From assembly GCF_013342145.1 (NCBI RefSeq), contig NZ_JABUQZ010000001.1, forward strand, positions 2,790,001-2,854,000: DNA of 64,000 nt, read 5' to 3'. The notes under the pieces were generated by a model. The model saw only the letters and a program-made list of their open reading frames with translations, was not told the origin of the DNA and ran no database searches. Below are positions 29,916 to 43,602 of the stretch, one piece after another. How positions within the stretch are numbered: position 1 is the stretch's first letter; each line of letters begins with the position of its first letter. Both the position numbers and the translations under genes were made by a program. Source of the DNA: Haloterrigena gelatinilytica (lineage in GTDB: Archaea; Halobacteriota; Halobacteria; Halobacteriales; Natrialbaceae).

Positions 29916-32570
29916 TTACAGCTCGTCGTAGAGGGCGACGACGTCATCATAGTCGATACGGCCGTTGTCGTTGAAGTCGAACGCCGCCTCGTTGAGTTGG
30001 ACGGCATCGCCCTCGAGGTTCTCGAACAGCAGGGTGACGTCCTGGTAGTCGAGTCGGCCGTTGCCGTTGACGTCCTCGAAGCGTCCGTCACCGTCGAGGT
30101 CCGTCGGGGCCTGACCCGACCCCGAACCCTCGCCGATCGGCGGCGGACCGACGACCACGATACCCGGACGCGGCTGGGTGTCGATCGCCATCCCGTCGTC
30201 GTCGTCCAGCGAGTGGACCTCGATCGTAACGTCGGTCGTCCCCGTGCCGACGCCCTCGAGTTCGAGCGTCGCGAGCGTGACGTCGTCGAGCGTCGCGCCG
30301 ATCGCGTCTTCGAGGTCGGCGAAGCGGAACTCGACGCTCGAGCCGTCGCCGATCGACGGCTCCGAGGTCAACTCGAGCGCGTCGTGGTAGCTGACGTCGG
30401 TGATCTCGGCGACGTCGGCGTGCTCGACCGAGATAGTGACCCGGCCGCCCGCGAGGCCGTCGGGGATCGACGAGAGCGTCAGGTCGACCTCGCCGGTCGC
30501 GCCGTGGCTGACCGCGATCGAGTCGGTCCGGAGAACCGCCGGCGGCTCGTAGACCCACATCGCGTCGTTCTCGTACGTGCGGCCGAAGGAGCCCTTGTCC
30601 TCACAGAGGATCACCCGACCGTCGTCCATGACCATCACGTTGTCGACGTTGATCAGCGACTCGTCGAGCAGGGAGACGGAATCGCTCCCGTTCGGGCCGA
30701 CGACGACCGGCTCGAGTCGGGAGACGTCGTAACCCTCCTCGAGTTCGGCTCGGTAGAGGACGCCGGTCTCGACCTCGTCGAAGCGGAGTTCGCCCTGATC
30801 GTCGGTCATCGAGCCGCCGAGCGCGGAGATACCGAAGTAGATGAAGTCGCCGGGTTCGGCCTCGTCGTGGGAGTCGATCCCCTCGGCCTTGTTGAACTCG
30901 ACGCTGGCGCCGATCTCCTTGGCGGCCGCGCGGGTCTCGAGGAAGGGAACGCGACGGAGTTCTTCGTCGACACCGTCTGGGCCGCGTTCCGCGTACTGTT
31001 CGGCCCACTCGACGATCTCCTCGTCGGCGATGTAGTCCTGGTTGCCGTTGATCGCGACCTCCTCGTCTGCTTCGCGCAGGGCCTGCTCGAGGTCGTCGGC
31101 CCAGTCCGTCTCGGCGTGAGTCTCGAGGTAGTCGACCTGCGTGACGTCGTCGTAGTCGCTGATCCAGGCTTCGACTTCGGCGTTACTCGCGGTGCCCAGC
31201 GGAAGCCACTCGATATCGAGGTCGGTCTCGGCGACCGGTCCCTCGCCGATCTCGGTGGCTTTCATGGCGTACAGCGTACCGCAGACGTCCATCCGGTCGT
31301 CGTACTCCGGAATCGGCTCTTCGGCGACGAACTTGTAGATGCCCTTCGCGCCGCCGTCGGAGGCCAGGTAGACGGTCCGCTCGTCGGGCAGCACTTCGGG
31401 ACACTCCCACGCGGCGCGGCCGAAGACGTGGTGTTTGACCGGGGTGGGATCGTCGCTCGCGGGATCGGTGATTTCAACGATCTTCCCGTAGCGGTAGCGG
31501 TTCGGGAACGCCTCGTCGCCGATGGGACGGTGGCGGTCCTCGATCTCAATCTCGCCGTCCTCGTTCTCGAACTCGCGCAGGTCGACGGGTTCGGCGCCGA
31601 GGTGGTAGGCGTGTTTCTCGAGGCCGGTCAGCGCCCACAGTCCCATCGGATACCAGGCGTCCTCGCCGAAGATGTCCGCGAGAGCGTCCTCGATTCCGGC
31701 GACGTTCGGTCGGTTCCAGAACGTGCTGGCGCCGCGAATACCGACACCGCTGCCCGCCTCGAGGACGTCGCTGACCGTCGCGAGCCCGTTGACGCGCGGA
31801 TGGCCGTAGTCCTCTTCGGCCGACAGTGGCGTCTCCCACGGACTCAGGTCGCCGTAACAGTTGATCCGCGTGCCGCCGATCTCGCGGAACGCCTCGGTGT
31901 TCTCGAGCTCCATCGCGTTCTCGAGGTCGGCCTCCCAGCGACCCGACTCGCGGCTGAGCGGCGTCCGGGTGATCGCACCCGGACGAGTCTCGTTGTTGGT
32001 GAAGAGGTAGCCCTCGGTGCCTTCCTCGTTCGTCGAGACGAAGAAGTTCATGTCGGTGACGCCGCCGGCGCTCGCGAGGTCCTCGCCGGCGAGCTCCGCG
32101 ACGTTCTCGCCGTCGGGCGTCTGCGGGTGACCGAACCGCTCGGTCCCGCCGTTGATCGGGTCGCCCGCCTGAACGAGCAGCCGGTAGTCGCCGGCCGCTC
32201 CGAGGACCTGCTGCTCCTCGGCCTTCGTTCGCGGCGGCTCGAGTTCGTCGAACTCGTCGTTCTTGCCGTTGAACGTGAACCGGAAGTCGTCGAAGACGCC
32301 GACCCCGCCCCGGTTGAACGGCTCCATATTGTCGTCGCTGGGCGCCTGCAGGCTGTAGAGTAGTTCCCCCGTCTCGAAGACGAACGGCCCCGTTACCTCG
32401 GCGCCGAGTGCCGTCGTCGAGAACCGGTCGATGTTCCCCTTGACGTACGGCGCCTCGAGCGTGTCGTGTTCCTCGGGATCCTCGTCCGCCCCCACGAGAC
32501 CGACCGTCCCCGCACCGACTGCCGCAGCCGCCGACGATGCCATCAGCTTCCGCCTGGTAAATTCGACCAT
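29916..32570 (-). CDS. Tat-exported PhoX-like (DUF839) protein with cohesin-like and dockerin modules, copy 1
   Basis: This 884-residue protein begins with a Tat signal (MVEFTRRKLMASSAAAAVGA). The PhoX-like catalytic region spans roughly residues 40-670. It includes the diagnostic NCYGDLSPWETPLSAEE, equivalent to the NC.G...PW.T.L..EE block that supplies the iron-binding Cys and Glu of PhoX. HHVFGRAAWECPEVLPDERT, YKFVAEEPIPE and GTLYAMKAT also match. Residues 676-808 are a cohesin-like domain (EVDLTLSSIPDGLAGGRVTI). Residues 824-884 are a dockerin with two Ca2+ loops, DVNGNGRLDYQD and DFNDNGRIDYDD. PhoX enzymes release phosphate from organic esters outside the membrane. A near-duplicate lies upstream and the anchored cohesin-like gene follows 3 nt downstream. 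Phosphatase activity is inferred. Confidence 0.83.
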   Translation of the reverse strand: MVEFTRRKLMASSAAAAVGAGTVGLVGADEDPEEHDTLEAPYVKGNIDRFSTTALGAEVTGPFVFETGELLYSLQAPSDDNMEPFNRGGVGVFDDFRFTFNGKNDEFDELEPPRTKAEEQQVLGAAGDYRLLVQAGDPINGGTERFGHPQTPDGENVAELAGEDLASAGGVTDMNFFVSTNEEGTEGYLFTNNETRPGAITRTPLSRESGRWEADLENAMELENTEAFREIGGTRINCYGDLSPWETPLSAEEDYGHPRVNGLATVSDVLEAGSGVGIRGASTFWNRPNVAGIEDALADIFGEDAWYPMGLWALTGLEKHAYHLGAEPVDLREFENEDGEIEIEDRHRPIGDEAFPNRYRYGKIVEITDPASDDPTPVKHHVFGRAAWECPEVLPDERTVYLASDGGAKGIYKFVAEEPIPEYDDRMDVCGTLYAMKATEIGEGPVAETDLDIEWLPLGTASNAEVEAWISDYDDVTQVDYLETHAETDWADDLEQALREADEEVAINGNQDYIADEEIVEWAEQYAERGPDGVDEELRRVPFLETRAAAKEIGASVEFNKAEGIDSHDEAEPGDFIYFGISALGGSMTDDQGELRFDEVETGVLYRAELEEGYDVSRLEPVVVGPNGSDSVSLLDESLINVDNVMVMDDGRVILCEDKGSFGRTYENDAMWVYEPPAVLRTDSIAVSHGATGEVDLTLSSIPDGLAGGRVTISVEHADVAEITDVSYHDALELTSEPSIGDGSSVEFRFADLEDAIGATLDDVTLATLELEGVGTGTTDVTIEVHSLDDDDGMAIDTQPRPGIVVVGPPPIGEGSGSGQAPTDLDGDGRFEDVNGNGRLDYQDVTLLFENLEGDAVQLNEAAFDFNDNGRIDYDDVVALYDEL

Positions 32571-32868: not shown

Positions 32869-35517
32869 TTACAGTTCGTCGTAGAGGGCGACGACGTCGT
32901 CGTAGTCGATGCGGCCGTTGTCGTTGAAGTCGAACGCCGCCTCGTTGAGCTGGACGGCGTCACCCTCGAGGTTCTCGAACAGCAGGGTGACGTCCTGGTA
33001 GTCGAGTCGGCCGTTGCCGTTGACGTCCTCGAAGCGCCCGTCACCGTCGAGGTCAGTCGGGGCGCGGCCCTCGCCGACCGGCGACGGACCGACGACCACG
33101 ACGCCCGGGCGAGGCTGGGTGTCGATCGCCATCCCGTCGTCGTCGTCCAGCGAGTGGACCTCGATCGTGATATCGGATGTCCCGGTCCCGACGCCCTCGA
33201 GTTCGAGCGTCGCGAGCGTGACGTCGTCGAGGGTCGCGCCGATCGCGTCTTCGAGGTCGGCGAAGCGGAACTCGACGCTCGAGCCGTCGCCGATCGACGG
33301 CTCCGAGGTCAGCTCGAGCGCGTCGTGGTAGCTGGCGTCGGTGATCTCGGCGACCTCGGCGTGCTCGACGGAGACCGTGACGCGACCGCCCGCGAGGCCG
33401 TCGGGGATCGACGAGAGCGTCAGGTCGACCTCGCCGGTCGCGCCGTGGCTGACGGCGACCGAGTCGGTCCGGAGAACCGCCGGCGGCTCGTAGACCCACA
33501 GCGCGTCGTTCTCGTACGTGCGGCCGAAGGTGCCCTTGTCCTCACAGAGGAGGACTCGGCCGTCGTCCATGACCATCACGTTGTCGACGTTGATCAGCGA
33601 CTCGTCGAGGATCGACTGGGGATCGCTCTCGTTCGGCCCGACGACGACCGGTTCGAGTCGGGAGACGTCGTAACCCTCCTCGAGTTCGGCTCGGTAGAGG
33701 ACGCCGGTCTGAACCTCGTCGAACCGAAGGTCGCCGTGCTCGTCGGTCATGGCGCCGCCGAGCGAGGAGATGCCGAAGTAGATGAAGTCGCCGGGTTCGG
33801 CCTCGTCGTGGGCGTCGATCCCTTCGGCCTTGTTGAACTCGACGCTGGCGCCGATTTCCTTGGCGGCCGCGCGGGTCTCGAGGAATGGGACGCGACGCAG
33901 GTCCTCGTCGACGCCGTCGGGGCCGCGTTCCTCGTACTGCTCGGCCCACTCGACGACCTCCTCGTCGGTGATGTAGTCCTGGTTGCCGTTGATGGCGACC
34001 TCCTCGTCCGCTTCCAGCAGCGCCTGGTCGAGGTCGTCGGCCCAGTCCGTCTCGGCGTGAGTCTCGAGGTAGTCGACCTGCGTGACGTCGTCGTAGTCGC
34101 TGATCCAGGCCTCGACTTCGGCGTTGCTCGCCGTTCCGAGCGGGAGCCACTCGACGTCGAGATCGGTCTCGGCGACCGTGCCCTCGCCGATCTCGGTTGC
34201 CTTCATGGCGTACAGCGTGCCGCGGACGTCCATCCGGTCGTCGCACTCCGGAATCGGCTTCTCGGCGACGAACTTGTAGATGCCCTTCGCGCCGCCGTCG
34301 GAGGCGAGATAGACCGTCCGTTCGTCGGGCAGCACCTCGGGGCACTCCCACGCGGCGCGACCGAAGACGTGGTGCTTGACCGGGGTCGGCACGTCGGCGG
34401 TCGGCTCGGTGACCTCGACGATCTTGCCGTAGCGGTAGCGGTTCGGGAACGCCTCGTCGCCGATGGGACGGGGCGTGTTCGCGGTCTCGAGACCGTCCTC
34501 GCCCTCGACCTCGACCTCGTTCTGATCGATCGGCTCGGCGCCGAGGTGATAGGCGTGTTTCTCGGTGTTCCGGTTGTTGTGCAGCCCCATCGGGTACTCG
34601 TGCTCGTCGCCGAATAGCTCCTGGAGCGAGGGGTCGACCTCGAGAATGTTGGGTCGATTCCAGAACTCGCTGCCGCCGCGGAGACCGACGCCGCTCCCCT
34701 GTTCGACGATGTCGCTGACCGTCGCGAGCCCGTTGACGCGCGGATGGCCGTACTCCTCTTCGGCCGACAGCGGGGTCTCCCACGGACTCAGGTCGCCGTA
34801 ACAGTTGACCTTCGTCCCGCCGATCTCGCGGAACGGTTCGGTGTTCTCGAGTTCCATCGCGTTCTCGAGATCGGCCTGCAGGTAGCCGTCCTCGTCCCGG
34901 TAGAGGGGGGTTCGCGTGATCCCGCCCGGTCGGATCTCGTTGTTGGTAAAGAGGTAGCCCTCAAGCCCCTCCTCGTCCGTCGAGACGAAGAAGTTCATGT
35001 CGGCCTGGTCGCCGATGCCGTCGTACCCCTCTTCGGAAACCTCGACGAGTTCCTGCCCGTCCGGCGTCTGCGGGTGGCCGAACCGCTCGGTCCCGCCGTT
35101 GATCTCGTCGCCCGTCTGGACGAGCAGCCGGTAGTCGCCGGCCGCCCCGAGGACCTGCTGTTCCTCGCGGTCCGTTCGCGGCGGCTCGAGCTCGTCGAAC
35201 TCGTCGTTCTTGCCGTTGAACGTGAACCGGAAGTCGTCGAAGACGCCGACCCCGCCCGTGTTGAAGGGCTCGAGGTTGTCGTCGTGTGGACCCTGGAGAC
35301 TGTAGAGGAGTTCCCCCGTGTCGAAGACGAACGGCCCCGTTACTTCGGCGCCGAAGGCCGTCGTCGAGAATCGATCGATGTTCCCCTTGACGTACGGCGC
35401 CTCGAGCGTGTCGTGTTCCTCGGGATCCTCGTCCGCCCCCACGAGACCGACTGTCCCCGCGCCGACTGCCGCTGCCGCCGACGATGCCATCAGCTTCCGC
35501 CTGGTAAATTCGACCAT
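32869..35517 (-). CDS. Tat-exported PhoX-like (DUF839) protein with cohesin-like and dockerin modules, copy 2
   Basis: This 882-residue tandem paralogue of the gene at 29916 has an identical Tat signal region and an almost identical C-terminus. The PhoX block is VNCYGDLSPWETPLSAEEEY. The cohesin-like domain is residues 678-810 and the dockerin is residues 822-882, with the loops DVNGNGRLDYQD and DFNDNGRIDYDD. Differences concentrate between about residues 150 and 350. For example, HNNRNTEKHAYHLGAEPIDQ replaces ALTGLEKHAYHLGAEPVDLR, and the linker before the dockerin is 4 residues shorter. It has its own AT-rich promoter. Since dockerin and cohesin-like modules are both present, the proteins could bind each other or the anchor. 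The enzyme class is inferred from DUF839/PhoX motifs. Confidence 0.83.
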   Translation of the reverse strand: MVEFTRRKLMASSAAAAVGAGTVGLVGADEDPEEHDTLEAPYVKGNIDRFSTTAFGAEVTGPFVFDTGELLYSLQGPHDDNLEPFNTGGVGVFDDFRFTFNGKNDEFDELEPPRTDREEQQVLGAAGDYRLLVQTGDEINGGTERFGHPQTPDGQELVEVSEEGYDGIGDQADMNFFVSTDEEGLEGYLFTNNEIRPGGITRTPLYRDEDGYLQADLENAMELENTEPFREIGGTKVNCYGDLSPWETPLSAEEEYGHPRVNGLATVSDIVEQGSGVGLRGGSEFWNRPNILEVDPSLQELFGDEHEYPMGLHNNRNTEKHAYHLGAEPIDQNEVEVEGEDGLETANTPRPIGDEAFPNRYRYGKIVEVTEPTADVPTPVKHHVFGRAAWECPEVLPDERTVYLASDGGAKGIYKFVAEKPIPECDDRMDVRGTLYAMKATEIGEGTVAETDLDVEWLPLGTASNAEVEAWISDYDDVTQVDYLETHAETDWADDLDQALLEADEEVAINGNQDYITDEEVVEWAEQYEERGPDGVDEDLRRVPFLETRAAAKEIGASVEFNKAEGIDAHDEAEPGDFIYFGISSLGGAMTDEHGDLRFDEVQTGVLYRAELEEGYDVSRLEPVVVGPNESDPQSILDESLINVDNVMVMDDGRVLLCEDKGTFGRTYENDALWVYEPPAVLRTDSVAVSHGATGEVDLTLSSIPDGLAGGRVTVSVEHAEVAEITDASYHDALELTSEPSIGDGSSVEFRFADLEDAIGATLDDVTLATLELEGVGTGTSDITIEVHSLDDDDGMAIDTQPRPGVVVVGPSPVGEGRAPTDLDGDGRFEDVNGNGRLDYQDVTLLFENLEGDAVQLNEAAFDFNDNGRIDYDDVVALYDEL

Positions 35518-35836: not shown

Positions 35837-36247
35837 TCAGTCGAGACCTTGTGTCCTCACTTCGGTCCGGACCTCGTCGGCGCGGTCGCGGACCCACGTG
35901 AGGTAGCGCTCGATCTCCGTCGGCGTCGATCCGAAGAAGGAGGCGACCCAGTCGCGGTCGGCCCACGGCAGCGTCATGAGGTAGGCGGCGAGGGTGTCCT
36001 TGCCCGCCTGGACGACCTCCGGCGGGACGCCACGCTCGCCGGTGCCCTCCTCGACGAAGCCGTTCACGTCGAAGTAGACGTCGGCGTACAGGCGGGCGTC
36101 CGTGAGGCTGTCGAAGGCGATATCGGTGTGTTCGGGCGCTTCGAACCGGTAGCGCTCGTCGGTGTCGTCGTCGACGATACGGACGTCGAGAACGTACTCC
36201 TCGACGACCCGATCGGCCGTTTCGGGGGCGGGGTCGGACGTGGACAT
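35837..36247 (-). CDS. Hypothetical protein with C-terminal HTH-like helix
   Basis: I do not recognise this 136-residue protein (ATG 36245-36247). The first half is a small alpha/beta region (VVEEYVLDVRIVDDDTDERY, then FDSLTDARLYADVYFDVNGF). The second half, TLPWADRDWVASFFGSTPTE followed by IERYLTWVRDRADEVR, looks like a sigma-type helix-turn-helix: helix with D-W-V-A, turn, then an I-E-R-Y-L recognition-like helix. It is soluble and acidic. It is oriented with the PhoX-like genes but separated from them by 319 bp. Confidence 0.55.
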   Translation of the reverse strand: MSTSDPAPETADRVVEEYVLDVRIVDDDTDERYRFEAPEHTDIAFDSLTDARLYADVYFDVNGFVEEGTGERGVPPEVVQAGKDTLAAYLMTLPWADRDWVASFFGSTPTEIERYLTWVRDRADEVRTEVRTQGLD

Positions 36248-36434: not shown

Positions 36435-37958
36435 ATGAACGTCCTGATCGTCCTCGGCCACCCCCGGACCGACAGCCTCTGTGGCGCGCTCGCCGACGCC
36501 TACCGCGACGGGGCGCTCGAGGCCGGTCTCGAGGTGCGACAACTCGCCGTCGCCGACCTCGCGTTCGATCCCGACGTCCGCGAGGTCTCGCCGACCGACC
36601 AACCGCTGGAGCCCGACCTGCGAGAGGCTCGTGACTCGATCGAGTGGGCCGACCACCTCGTCTTCGTCTACCCGAACTGGTGGGGGACGATGCCGGCGCG
36701 GCTCAAGGGTTTCTTCGACCGCGTCTTCACGCCCGGCTTCGCGTTCGTCGAGTACGACGAGGGCGAGGGCGCGGGTCACGAGGGACTCCTGGACGACAAG
36801 ACCGCCGAGCTGATCGTCACGATGGACATGCCGCCGTGGGTCTACCGCTGGATCTACCGCCAGCCGGGCAACAACGCCGTCAAGCGCGCGACGCTCGGCT
36901 ACGCGGGGATCCGGACGACGCGGATCACCAACCTCGGCCCCGTCGAGGGGTCGACCCCCGAGGAGCGAGGGGAGTGGCTCGAGACGGCGACTCGACTCGG
37001 CGAGCGTCTCGCCAGCGGGCCCGATTCGCGATCCACGCGCGTCCGCCGGCGGGCGACGGCGTGGCTGAAGGCGCTGCGGCTGCAGTTCTACCCGATGGCG
37101 TGGGTGGCCTACACCATCGGCGCGCTGGCGGCCGTCGGCTCCAGCGACGTCCTCTCGTCGACCGCCTACTGGCTGGGCTTCGCCTTCATTTTCGCCCTCG
37201 AGGCGGCGACGGTGCTGTCGAACGAGTACGTCGACTACCCCACCGACCGCGAGAACGCGTTCGCCGGCCCCTTCACCGGTGGCTCGCAGGTGCTGGTCGA
37301 CGGCGTCCTCGAGTTCGACGATCTCAGACGGGGGATCGGCGTCGCGCTCCTCGCGGCCGTCGCGTTCGGCGCGGGCGCGCTCGCGGTCGGTCCCGGCTCG
37401 GCCGTTGCCGCGGCGGCCATCATGGGCGTTCTGAGCGCGCTGGCGCTGGGCTACACGGTCCCGCCGCTGGAACTCTCCTACCGGACGCTCGGCGAACTGG
37501 ACGTCGCCGTCACACACAGCGTCGGGGTACTGGTCTGTGGCTTCGTCCTCCTCGGCGGTGCCCTGACCGATCCGCTCCCGTGGCTGCTCTCGGTGCCGTA
37601 CCTGCTGTCGGTGCTGCCGGCGATCACGCTCGCGGGCGTTCCAGACCGCGCGGCCGACCGGGACACCGGCAAGGAGACGATCGCCGTCCGGTTCGGCGTC
37701 GACGGCGCCGCGAGGATCGCTGCGGCGACGGCGGTTCTGGCCTGCCTCGCCGCGATCGGCTGGGCGGCCTTCGACGTCGCCGGCGGCGCCTACGGCCCGC
37801 TCGTCGCCCTCACCGTGCCCCACGCGCTCGCGCTCGTCTGGCTCCTGCGGTCGCGACTGTGGGAGCGGACTGAATCCGCCCGTATCGACGGGCTGCTGGC
37901 CGTCTCGCTCGGCTATCTGGTCTGGTTCGGCGTCGTACCGTTGCTCAGTCTCGCGTGA
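36435..37958 (+). CDS. Flavodoxin-type NAD(P)H quinone reductase fused to UbiA prenyltransferase
   Basis: This 507-residue protein is a fusion. Residues 1-190 are a flavodoxin_2 / NQO-like domain (MNVLIVLGHPRTDSLCGALA, FVYPNWWGTMPARLKGFFDR with the FMN-binding P-N-W-W, and TPGFAF). Residues 210-507 are a UbiA-type membrane prenyltransferase with about eight transmembrane helices. Its first Asp-rich motif is NEYVDYPTDREN (D267, D271) and its second is DRAADRDTGKETIAVRFG. UbiA enzymes attach an isoprenoid chain to aromatic or quinone precursors with Mg2+. Fusing a quinone reductase suggests that substrate redox state is controlled on the same polypeptide. The acceptor is unknown. The 3' end overlaps the convergent histidine-kinase gene by 14 bp. 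Confidence 0.85.
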   Translation: MNVLIVLGHPRTDSLCGALADAYRDGALEAGLEVRQLAVADLAFDPDVREVSPTDQPLEPDLREARDSIEWADHLVFVYPNWWGTMPARLKGFFDRVFTPGFAFVEYDEGEGAGHEGLLDDKTAELIVTMDMPPWVYRWIYRQPGNNAVKRATLGYAGIRTTRITNLGPVEGSTPEERGEWLETATRLGERLASGPDSRSTRVRRRATAWLKALRLQFYPMAWVAYTIGALAAVGSSDVLSSTAYWLGFAFIFALEAATVLSNEYVDYPTDRENAFAGPFTGGSQVLVDGVLEFDDLRRGIGVALLAAVAFGAGALAVGPGSAVAAAAIMGVLSALALGYTVPPLELSYRTLGELDVAVTHSVGVLVCGFVLLGGALTDPLPWLLSVPYLLSVLPAITLAGVPDRAADRDTGKETIAVRFGVDGAARIAAATAVLACLAAIGWAAFDVAGGAYGPLVALTVPHALALVWLLRSRLWERTESARIDGLLAVSLGYLVWFGVVPLLSLA

Positions 37959-39684
37959 CGGCGCGGCGAGAGCCCGACGCGGCGTCGGTCGCCGCCGGAA
38001 CGCACACCGTCACCGTCGTTCCGTCGTCGCCGGAATCGAACTCGATCTCGCCGCCCAGCGCGGTCGCACACCACGTCGCGATCCACAGGCCGAGACCGCT
38101 CCCGTGCGAGAGCGGCGTCTCCTCGCCCCGCTCAAGCACGGCGAGTTCGTGCTCGGGAATCCCGGGACCGTCGTCGGCGACCTCGAACACCGCCATCCCG
38201 TCCGCGAGACCGACGTAGCTGATCGCGACTCGAGGAGAGTCGCCGTCGTTGTGTTCGAACCCGTTCTCGACCAGGTTCGCGAACAGCGTCCGGAACACGC
38301 GCTCGTGGGTCCGTAGCTCGAGGTCCACGGGCACGTCGATCTCGAGTCGGCTCGCTCCGTCGGTTCGGACGCGCGACCGTCCCCGCTCGCCGGGTTCGAG
38401 GCTCGCCAACAGCGGACGGATCGAGACGGTTGTCGGGGACGTATCGAGGGCCTCGATCGTCCGCTCGAGCGCTCGGGACTTCTCTCCTAACTCCAACACG
38501 TCGTCGACGTCGGATTGCACCCGCTTGAGGTACGCTTCGATCGTCTCGTCGTCGGTGTGCTCGATCGACAGGTCGACGTAGCCCGAGACGACGTTGAGAT
38601 CGTTCCGGAGATTGTGCCGAAGGACGCGATTCATGACCGTCTGTTGCTGTCTCCGCTGGCGTCGCTCGGTCACGTCTCGAAAGACGACGATGTATCCGAC
38701 TCGCGCACCGGACGGATCCGTCAGCTCCGACACCGACGCCGTGAACTCCGCGCTTTCGGGGCCCTCGTGGTCGGTCACGAGCCGGTTCGTCGGCGTCGTC
38801 TCGAGGTCGACGGTCGCGACGGTCTCGAACGGCTCGCCGAGGTGCGCTTCGGAGAGATCGAAGGTCGACCCGGCCGCCGGATTGTACTCGACGAGACGGT
38901 CGTCCGTATTGACGACGACGACGGGATCCGAGAGGTCCTCGACCGCCCGCCGCTGGGCGGTTCGCCTGGTCGACGGGTTGAGTTCGATCATCCCGCTGGC
39001 GACGATGGCGTACGCGTCGAGTGCCAAGTGCGGGAGGAACACGATCGTCGTCAGGTGTAACTGCGGGTACGGGCCGAGTTCGAAGAGCCACGTCGCGAGG
39101 GCGAGACACGGGAGGACGGCGCTCAGCCCGACCCAGAGCGTCTCGGTCCGGTACACCGGACCGTAACTGACCGCCGTCTCGAGCACCAAGACGGTGCCGG
39201 CCGTCGCGTAGAGGATCCCGGAGAGCAGGCCGATGTACGCGATCGGACCGAACTCGTAGGAGACGGTCGCAACACCGAAGACGGGATCGAGCCGGAATCC
39301 GGACCAGACGAGCCCGTGAAGCGGGTTCGTCAGGACGAGTCCGATCGTCGCGGCCGGCACGACCGACAGGAGCGCGAACCCGGTGCTACGGACGAGCGGC
39401 CCCCGGCCGGTGTAATCGAGGGCGAACGCCAGATAGGCGATTCCGGCGCCGATCATCCCCGTCCAGGAAACCGTCTCGAGGACCAGCCGGAGCGTCGGCT
39501 CGAACACCAGCAGCGAGACGCCGTCGCTGACCGACCAGACGGCGAGCGCGAGGACCGTGACGATCGCCCAGTTCACGCCCGGCTGTCCGCAGTGGCGCCG
39601 GAGGTACCACGCCAGAAACGCGCTACAGGCGCCGGTGAGCAGCGAGCCGATCACGAGCCACGGCGAGAGTGACACTGTCGACAC
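37945..39684 (-). CDS. Histidine kinase with 7TM N-terminus and PAS domain
   Basis: This 579-residue protein starts at GTG 39684. Residues 1-220 hold about seven membrane helices of the histidine-kinase 7TM type (LVIGSLLTGACSAFLAWYLR, AIVTVLALAVWSVSDGVSLL). A PAS domain (residues 240-340, DPVVVVNTDDRLVEYNPAAG) follows. The H-box is MNRVLRHNLRNDLNVV, the RHNLRN form common in haloarchaea. The ATPase domain has N-box NLVENGFEHND, G1 ADDGPGIPEHE and G2 HGSGLGLW. No response regulator is adjacent, as is frequent for haloarchaeal orphan kinases. The input signal is unknown and could be membrane-linked. Confidence 0.9.
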   Translation of the reverse strand: MSTVSLSPWLVIGSLLTGACSAFLAWYLRRHCGQPGVNWAIVTVLALAVWSVSDGVSLLVFEPTLRLVLETVSWTGMIGAGIAYLAFALDYTGRGPLVRSTGFALLSVVPAATIGLVLTNPLHGLVWSGFRLDPVFGVATVSYEFGPIAYIGLLSGILYATAGTVLVLETAVSYGPVYRTETLWVGLSAVLPCLALATWLFELGPYPQLHLTTIVFLPHLALDAYAIVASGMIELNPSTRRTAQRRAVEDLSDPVVVVNTDDRLVEYNPAAGSTFDLSEAHLGEPFETVATVDLETTPTNRLVTDHEGPESAEFTASVSELTDPSGARVGYIVVFRDVTERRQRRQQQTVMNRVLRHNLRNDLNVVSGYVDLSIEHTDDETIEAYLKRVQSDVDDVLELGEKSRALERTIEALDTSPTTVSIRPLLASLEPGERGRSRVRTDGASRLEIDVPVDLELRTHERVFRTLFANLVENGFEHNDGDSPRVAISYVGLADGMAVFEVADDGPGIPEHELAVLERGEETPLSHGSGLGLWIATWCATALGGEIEFDSGDDGTTVTVCVPAATDAASGSRRAVTRD

Positions 39685-41330: not shown

Positions 41331-41549
41331 GTGCGACGGGTCGCCGGCCTCTCGTAACTAGCTGTCGTTGTCTCGCAGGCTCGCAGGCGGGCGATACCGA
41401 AACGCGAGCCGTCCCCGCCCCGCTCCCGCCTCCTGCCGCTCGAGGGCCGGCGGCCCGACGCCGGTGGCAGACGGAAAGTATATACAACGCAACTAGAGAA
41501 TGTGGCGCAGCTATCGGGTCGCCGCGACGGCGGCGTCCCGCCCTCGATC

Positions 41550-43109
41550 ATGACCGGCCGCCCCTCCCTCACGACGCTGCCCGATCGCGCTCGGCTCCGC
41601 GACGCGCTCGATCGCCGGTTCGGCATCGACGCCCGCGCGCTGGCGGCGTTCCGGATCCTCCTCGGCTGTACGCTGCTGTTCGACGTCCTCCACCGGTCGC
41701 GGGACCTGGTAGCGTTCTACGCCGACGCCGGCGCGTACCCGCGGGCGTTGCGCCTCGCGGTCGGGGACTCGAGCGGCCGGTACTCGCTGCACATGCTGTC
41801 GGGCGAGCCGCTGGTGCAGGCCGCGCTCTTCGGCCTCGCGGCGCTGCTCGCGATCGCGCTGATCGTCGGCTACCGAACGCGGCCCGTCACTTTCCTCTCG
41901 CTGGTCCTGCTGGTCTCCGTCCACTTCCGCAACCCGCTGGTCCTCAACGGCGCCGACAGGCTGTTGCGCGAGGTGCTGTTGCTGGGGCTGTTCCTGCCGC
42001 TCGGGCGGCGGTGGGCCGTCGACGCGCTCGGCGACGACCGGGACGGTGGCGGCGATCAGAACCGTGAACCCGGAAACGGGACGAGAACGAGAGCCGAGAA
42101 CTGGGTGGTGACGCCCGCGACGGCGGCCGTCCTCGTCTACGTCGTCGGCTTCTTCGCGAACAACGGCCAGCACAAGCGACTCGGCGACACCTGGACCACC
42201 GGCGAGGCGCTGGGGTACGCCCTCCGGCAGGACCACATGACGATCCTGGCCGCCGACTACGTCGTCGACTATCCGCTGCTCCTCGAGGCCGGGACCTACG
42301 GCTGGCTGGCCGTGGTCGTCGGCGCCCCGCTGTTGCTGGTGCTGACCGGCTGGCTCCGGACCGCCTACGTCGGGGCGTTCCTCGGCGCCGTCGCCGGACT
42401 GGGACTGAGCGTGGCCGTGGGCCTGTTCCCCGCGGTGCTGACGGCGGTGCTGGTGCTCTTCCTTCCCTCGTTCGTCTGGGATCGCCTCGAGGCACTCGGC
42501 GCGGCGTGCTGTGAACGAATCGGGCCGCTCGAGCGCCTGCGGACGCGAATCGGCGCGCTCGCGTCGCGGGTCGGTCCGCCCCGCAGCCTCCGTTCGGCGC
42601 TCCCGTCGCAGGTCGGGAACCGCCGGCACCGGCTCCGGTCGGTCCTCCTCGGCGGCGTATTGATCGTCGTCGTCCTCTGGACCGTCGGATTGTTGGGCTA
42701 CGCGGACGCGTTCGAACCGGTCGACGCCGTCGATCCCGACGACAACCAGTGGACGATGTACGCCCCGAACCCGTCGACGAGCTACGGCTGGTACGTGGTC
42801 GAGGCCGACCTCGAGTCCGGCGAGGAGATGGACGTCCTGCGAAACGAGGCGGTCCGGGACGGACCGCCGGCGGAGGCGTCGGACACGCTTCCGAGCTTCC
42901 GCTGGCGCAAGTACATGAACTCCTTAGACGACGAGGAGGCCCGGGCCGACCGGTTCGGAGCGTACATGTGCGACCGCGCCGCCGACCAGTTCGACGCGCC
43001 CGTCGAGCGGATCGAAGTCACCTACCACTACCGATCGATCGAACCCGAGGGAGACGACCCGACGACGGGGAACGTCACTCGAGTCGAAACGGCGTGTTCG
43101 GCGATCTGA
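41550..43109 (+). CDS. HTTM-domain membrane protein (vitamin K gamma-carboxylase-like)
   Basis: This 519-residue protein has an N-terminal HTTM region (residues 15-330) with several membrane helices. Examples are LAAFRILLGCTLLFDVLHRS, LVAFYADAGAYPRALRLAVG and FGLAALLAIALIVGYRTRPV. A soluble C-terminal part contains DDNQWTMYAPNPSTSYGWYV, matching the W-x-M-Y-A-P-N-P motif of this family. HTTM proteins share an ancestor with vitamin K-dependent gamma-carboxylase, but their archaeal function is not known. ATG 41550 is used; GTG 41502 is also possible because a TATATA tract is at 41479. The next gene encodes a DCC1-like thiol oxidoreductase, a common partner. Confidence 0.85.
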   Translation: MTGRPSLTTLPDRARLRDALDRRFGIDARALAAFRILLGCTLLFDVLHRSRDLVAFYADAGAYPRALRLAVGDSSGRYSLHMLSGEPLVQAALFGLAALLAIALIVGYRTRPVTFLSLVLLVSVHFRNPLVLNGADRLLREVLLLGLFLPLGRRWAVDALGDDRDGGGDQNREPGNGTRTRAENWVVTPATAAVLVYVVGFFANNGQHKRLGDTWTTGEALGYALRQDHMTILAADYVVDYPLLLEAGTYGWLAVVVGAPLLLVLTGWLRTAYVGAFLGAVAGLGLSVAVGLFPAVLTAVLVLFLPSFVWDRLEALGAACCERIGPLERLRTRIGALASRVGPPRSLRSALPSQVGNRRHRLRSVLLGGVLIVVVLWTVGLLGYADAFEPVDAVDPDDNQWTMYAPNPSTSYGWYVVEADLESGEEMDVLRNEAVRDGPPAEASDTLPSFRWRKYMNSLDDEEARADRFGAYMCDRAADQFDAPVERIEVTYHYRSIEPEGDDPTTGNVTRVETACSAI

Positions 43110-43185: not shown

Positions 43186-43602
43186 ATGGCCACGGACGTA
43201 CCGCGGGAGGATCCGATCGTGCTCTTCGACGGCGTCTGCAACCTCTGTCACGGGTTCGTGCAGTTTCTCGTCCCGCGGGACACCGAGGGTCAGTTTCACT
43301 TCGCGTCGTTGCAGTCCGACGTCGGCCAGCGGCTGCTGGCGGAGCACGGCCTCGCGGACCACGACCTCGACTCGGTCGTGTTGCTCGAGGGCGACGACGC
43401 GTACGTCAAATCGGACGCGGTGATCCGGATCGCCCAGCTCCTGGGCGGCGTCTACCGACTGCTCGGGCCGTGTCGGTTCCTCCCCCGCCGGTTTCGGGAC
43501 TGGGCGTACGACCTCGTCGCGCGCCACCGCTACCGGCTGTTCGGGCAGAAAGAACAGTGCATGCTGCCGACCGGGAACGTTCGGGACCGGTTTCTCGAGT
43601 AG
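43186..43602 (+). CDS. DCC1-like thiol-disulfide oxidoreductase (DUF393)
   Basis: This 138-residue protein opens EDPIVLFDGVCNLCHGFVQF. The D-G-V-C-N-L-C motif is the CxxC redox site of the DCC family, which has a thioredoxin-like fold. FHFASLQSDVGQRLLAEHGL and DDAYVKSDAVIRIAQLLGGV followed by YRLLGPCRFLPR complete the usual pattern. It starts 76 bp after the HTTM gene, on the same strand. DCC proteins are frequently next to or fused with HTTM domains, so a joint membrane-linked redox function is likely but undefined. Confidence 0.9.
   Translation: MATDVPREDPIVLFDGVCNLCHGFVQFLVPRDTEGQFHFASLQSDVGQRLLAEHGLADHDLDSVVLLEGDDAYVKSDAVIRIAQLLGGVYRLLGPCRFLPRRFRDWAYDLVARHRYRLFGQKEQCMLPTGNVRDRFLE

Follow-up and report, generated by a model that had tools for sequence, protein, structure and literature searches.

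UbiA enzymes produce respiratory quinones, vitamin K2, heme o, archaeal lipids, and carotenoids; the reduced, reactive acceptor is usually supplied by separate reductases, and for human UBIAD1 the physiological reductase partner is probably NQO1. UBIAD1 forms no MK-4 from menadione without DTT, from which the authors of that work conclude that reduction is required (PMC4398444); the pairing of a reductase with a UbiA enzyme therefore makes chemical sense, because UBIAD1 cannot prenylate menadione unless the quinone is reduced first. The IspH-UbiA fusions of sulfate-reducing bacteria, called ‘Rosetta stone’ proteins (PMC4746011), are a precedent for placing a UbiA enzyme and a partner in one chain.

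We analyzed a window (the whole stretch of DNA under study, 64,000 nucleotides) from the 4.55-Mb genome of the haloarchaeon Haloterrigena gelatinilytica, in which a flavodoxin-type quinone reductase and a UbiA membrane enzyme are encoded as one protein. This protein shares with the IspH-UbiA fusions the layout of a soluble N-terminal enzyme followed by a C-terminal UbiA domain, as well as the presence of separate UbiA/MenA genes in the genome; however, the partner in those fusions, IspH, is an iron-sulfur enzyme that serves the prenyl-donor side, whereas the partner here is a flavodoxin-type reductase presumed to act on the acceptor side. It differs from the human system in that UBIAD1 and its quinone reductase are two proteins instead of one chain, and also in its second Asp motif. 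We found no published account of this fusion in the open literature, the scope of our search; this is consistent with the initial annotation, for which the pairing is not known to be an established architecture.

Architecture of the fusion protein

The gene occupies positions 36435..37958 of the plus strand, to which all coordinates within the gene refer, and encodes 507 residues in a single open frame from an ATG to a stop codon (0 internal stops). Its GC3 is 0.91, and that of the adjacent phosphoglycerate mutase gene is 0.93. The uninterrupted joining of a flavodoxin and a UbiA domain, first proposed from the reading frame, is borne out, both Pfam domains scoring above their cut-offs; of the proposed domain limits, residues 1–190 for the flavodoxin part and the UbiA end at residue 507 hold, and the UbiA start lies nearer residue 213 than residue 210.

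The N-terminal NQO-type flavodoxin quinone reductase domain (residues 1–190; 36435..37004) is supported by Pfam, phmmer, and structural alignment. Pfam Flavodoxin_2 (PF02525) covers residues 1–175 (E 6.6e-35; 121.1 bits, gathering threshold 27), and phmmer matches the domain to 3lcm (E 1.7e-19). In an AlphaFold2 model of the fusion (mean pLDDT 93.2, pTM 0.81), this domain aligns with NQO-family chains (the NQO1/NQO2/MdaB fold) at Z 20–24 over 167–195 residues; the best structure is 3lcm (Z 23.7), followed by NQO2 (4fgl, 23.0) and NQO1 (1d4a, 22.6). The domain thus has the fold and the signature residues of the NAD(P)H:quinone oxidoreductases of PF02525 (3lcm, 4r81, NQO1, and NQO2), but these are free, soluble proteins, whereas the domain here is joined to UbiA. 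NQO-family enzymes work as dimers.

Three segments of this domain contain residues that are invariant in fused copies. In the GHPR loop (residues 8–11; 36456..36467), G8, H9, and P10 are invariant in fused copies; by analogy with NQO-family proteins, this would be the region of the flavin-phosphate loop. The NQO-family signature region, PNWWGTMPARLKGFFDR (residues 80–96; 36672..36722), contains P80, W82, W83, P87, K91, D95, and R96, which are invariant in fused copies and nearly so in standalone relatives. Where NQO1 has its TTGG flavin loop, the fusion has TMDMPP (residues 129–134; 36819..36836; alignment by eye), in which T129, M130, D131, and P133 are invariant in fused copies. This loop, unlike that of NQO1, and the few residues typical of fused copies (R11, P53, A148, and T153, as compared with standalone relatives) could be taken to mean that the flavodoxin domain serves as a degenerate module, sensory or regulatory, by which the prenyltransferase is gated. 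We consider this very improbable: the same TMDxP loop occurs in most standalone relatives, and the flavodoxin half is the more constrained of the two (dN/dS 0.15–0.26, compared with 0.27–0.38 for the UbiA half, both by a simple counting method).

The two domains are connected by a linker of 22 residues (191–212; 37005..37070), the least constrained segment (dN/dS 0.26–0.48 by the same simple counting method) and one that contains 0 stops in any orthologue.

The UbiA membrane prenyltransferase domain (residues 213–507; 37071..37958) was identified by Pfam, profile, and structure. PF01040 covers residues 227–474 (E 2.2e-16; 60.4 bits, gathering threshold 34.2), and a hydropathy plot contains eight hydrophobic segments. 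By sequence profile the closest solved structure is that of human UBIAD1 (E 3.4e-12), followed by DGGGP synthase (2e-5), these being the sole matches at E<=10; by structure UBIAD1 (chain 8djk_B of 8djk; Z 23.6 over 270 residues, rmsd 3.1) is tied with ApUbiA (23.4) and DGGGP synthase (22.9). Likeness of fold is not in itself proof of function.

The domain begins with ALRLQFYPMA (residues 213–222; 37071..37100), in which R215, Q217, F218, P220, and M221 are invariant; by analogy, R215 would occupy the position of the UbiA TM1 arginine, with a role modeled on that of R22 in AfUbiA. Both Asp motifs are intact, as had been claimed, so that the domain carries the two motifs of the UbiA superfamily (N263, D267, D271, D404, and D408). 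The first, NEYVDYPTD (263–271), lies within NEYVDYPTDREN (residues 263–274; 37221..37256); the second is PDRAADRDTGKET (residues 403–415; 37641..37679). In 23 fused copies, archaeal and bacterial and with identities down to 47%, N263, D267, D271, and N274 are invariant in the first motif, as are P403, D404, A407, D408, K413, and T415 in the second. In AfUbiA, N68, D72, D198, and D202 bind Mg2+ and diphosphate (PMC4106721); matched by motif, the invariant residues of the fusion include these positions. With catalytic residues kept and purifying selection on each, both halves look active.

Occurrence, ancestry, and genome context of the fusion

A search of other genomes for the same domain order identified the fusion in archaea and in several bacterial groups. 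Full-length, stop-free copies are present in 18 of 100 related genomes (host included), with one additional shortened copy; across the order of the host, 33 of the 392 genomes sampled carry it, and these belong to two families. In the collection of named genomes, for which all counts are lower bounds, bacterial fusions at 46–53% identity are present at least in Gammaproteobacteria (Litchfieldella, 52%, and others), Burkholderiaceae (a MAG), Alphaproteobacteria (Rhodobacteraceae/Paracoccaceae and Lutibaculum), and Gemmatimonadota (MAGs). In the order of Litchfieldella, only 2 of 245 genomes have it. One copy labeled Gemmatimonadetes (L081) clusters with the archaeal copies and is probably mis-binned.

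With this fusion in dozens of separately sequenced genomes from several phyla, the chance that a sequencing or assembly artefact, or a fortuitous read-through, created it is negligible, and a missed stop at the junction is ruled out by the same fused orthologues. The initial annotation had named orthologues split at the junction as the observation that would count against it; among the orthologues found, 0 are split. We conclude that the protein is a genuine fusion, ancient and conserved.

Two copies carry lesions, both within the UbiA part and away from the junction. One (in G662) has a frameshift near residue 250; the other, in Natronolimnohabitans sp. A-GB9 (G049), has an in-frame loss of approximately residues 229–337 (~109 residues) that removes the first Asp motif, and its flavodoxin half is intact.

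In a tree of UbiA sequences, all 31 fused sequences form one clade (support 97/99), and in a tree of NQO-type flavodoxin sequences, all 30 fused sequences do likewise (100/95); the recovery of the fused copies as one clade in both trees argues for one fusion event followed by spread between domains of life. In both trees the archaeal copies form one clade nested among bacterial copies, and the simplest reading is that a single fusion in bacteria was later transferred to the haloarchaea. The reference UbiA sequences have long branches and an unsure mutual order, which leaves the fused clade unaffected.

The nearest unfused haloarchaeal relatives of the UbiA part (23–28% identity) are a group of UbiA proteins (L169–L177) that have NEYADYETD and PFSGGS motifs, the latter within PFSGGSGAL, and that lack the flavodoxin domain; no flavodoxin-domain gene is present in the flanking stretches examined. 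By hand count, 41 of 125 family genomes have the fusion (including one deleted and one frameshifted copy), 17 have the unfused PFSGGSGAL protein, and 2 have both. We rejected functional replacement of the unfused protein by the fusion as a conclusion from these counts (Fisher one-sided p 0.038, uncorrected for kinship and so no more than suggestive).

A plasmid of Roseinatronobacter sp. S2 also carries the fusion (WP_277806833.1). The gene, in the region L179:8355-15564, is near genes for a sigma-70 family factor, a P450, a catalase, and a superoxide dismutase, surroundings suggesting a stress setting. Its RefSeq entry, the one entry examined, is annotated just as an NAD(P)H-dependent oxidoreductase, and other database copies of the fusion may be mislabeled as well.

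Comparison of gene neighbors revealed no partner conserved across genera, sharing being confined mainly to the genus and Natrialba; the lack of a neighbor kept across genera suits a self-contained function. Upstream, a divergent ORF of 136 residues (35837-36247, minus strand), without a match in Pfam or NCBIfam, is kept only within the genus and Natrialba. Downstream, a 7TM histidine kinase gene (37945-39684, minus strand; HisKA_7TM, PAS, and HATPase domains) overlaps the 3′ end of the fusion gene by 14 bp; in congeners, whose fusion gene is directly followed by gpmI, no match to the kinase gene lies close to the fusion. Farther downstream are genes for a 535-residue membrane protein (41502-43109, plus strand) and a DCC1-like thiol-disulfide oxidoreductase (43186-43602, plus strand), a pair kept in four congeners; a link between the fusion and the membrane protein, which we suspected to be an HTTM/vitamin K carboxylase relative, was rejected (no Pfam match, and synteny in those four congeners only). 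On the other side of the fusion are tandem genes for PhoX-like proteins (29916-32570 and 32869-35517, minus strand; 86% identical), whose N-termini are both Tat-like and whose C-termini both have a stretch that resembles a type I dockerin at a score just under the Pfam cut-off.

Other UbiA genes and the naphthoquinone pathway

The host genome contains eight UbiA genes. Heme o synthase, DGGGP synthase, MenA, and a DPPR-type enzyme are encoded by separate genes, each above its NCBIfam cut-off; the protein that passes PRK12875 is taken, from its motifs, to be the lycopene elongase LyeJ, and two more UbiA-family genes (L047 and L048) score below every NCBIfam cut-off. With eight UbiA genes and a separate canonical MenA, we rejected the possibilities that the fusion is the only UbiA protein of this genome or its plain MenA.

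The fusion might instead be a redundant MenA, that is, another DHNA prenyltransferase, whose attached reductase holds DHNA or the product in the reduced state. In the UbiA tree, which took in no UBIAD1 sequence, its UbiA part groups with MenA-like proteins and not with UbiA/CtaB or DGGGP synthase sequences; it shares the UbiA fold and the two Asp motifs with canonical MenA (TIGR00751, PRK06080) and has weak matches to the MenA models. However, the best of these matches (PRK06080) scores 42.2 bits, far under the equivalog cut-off of 277, and canonical MenA, without an N-terminal reductase, is already encoded in the same genome (402 bits, cut-off 264) ~5 kb from menB. Among seven genomes with the fusion, MenB is above cut-off in the host and G650 only and MqnA/D in 0; a MenA is expected to co-occur with the Men or Mqn pathway, and among these genomes the fusion does not do so consistently. 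Four fusion-bearing bacteria (G402, G463, G647, and G648, which include Litchfieldella, Pararhodobacter, and Lutibaculum) have neither MenB above cut-off nor MqnA/D. Given that the host has a separate MenA and that these bacteria have neither marker, the fusion is not simply a second MenA, and we regard a redundant MenA as improbable. Since the four bacteria lack MenB and MqnA/D, the acceptor need not derive from a naphthoquinone pathway; also, the second Asp motif has the form GVPDxxAD, unlike the NNIRDxExD of MenA, which means that the acceptor may be something other than a naphthoquinone.

Proposed function

The initial annotation proposed that the protein couples the reduction of a quinone or aromatic acceptor to its prenylation. 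This is the reading that the folds, the purifying selection, the single ancient fusion, and the UBIAD1 precedent support best, and the coupling itself is what we infer from them; we give an even chance to the fusion being a bifunctional, membrane-bound, redox-coupled prenyltransferase that reduces a quinone-type acceptor and prenylates the hydroquinone. The N-terminal domain would use NAD(P)H and a bound flavin for two-electron reduction of a soluble quinone-type acceptor to the hydroquinone, which may be channeled to the cytoplasm-facing pocket of the UBIAD1/MenA-like UbiA domain; there, Mg2+-bound polyprenyl diphosphate would alkylate the electron-rich ring, reduction presumably preceding prenylation. 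The tether would hold the acceptor reduced and close to the pocket, thereby curbing redox cycling of the free quinone.

The two domains could also be tethered yet uncoupled: the UbiA acceptor would need no reduction, and the membrane-held flavodoxin domain would serve redox homeostasis by reducing membrane or soluble quinones, or else the prenylated product. The stress-type genes beside the Roseinatronobacter copy (sigma-70 family factor, catalase, and superoxide dismutase) are in keeping with such a role, as is the widespread occurrence of the N-domain family alone, where it does not adjoin UbiA genes in the loci checked; the authors of the IspH-UbiA work also consider UbiA as a membrane localizer of its partner (PMC4746011). 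However, invariant Asp motifs would be superfluous in a mere anchor, and one fusion has been kept whole across domains of life and is split at the junction in none of the orthologues found, which favors functional coupling; we therefore think an uncoupled protein rather unlikely.

For the redox-coupled prenyltransferase, the product would be a lipoquinone of the membrane, formed as a soluble quinone is salvaged or detoxified, outside the main respiratory-quinone pathway. Because a naphthoquinone pathway is not required as the source of the acceptor, we favor a role in salvaging or disposing of a soluble quinone, or in making a side lipoquinone, over synthesis of the main respiratory quinone; any given acceptor that might be named would be a choice more apt to be wrong than right. 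A further proposal, which we consider less likely than not, is a quinone prenylase in one chain, driven by NAD(P)H, that would convert a soluble, redox-cycling quinone to a membrane-held prenyl-hydroquinone, even in organisms that lack a naphthoquinone pathway; if true, this would be a lipoquinone or detoxification route not yet described. A natural fusion that was fixed once and spread between archaea and bacteria would join both steps in a form that can be tested with one purified protein, and it suggests that halophilic and haloalkaliphilic microbes have a further lipoquinone or prenylated aromatic compound.
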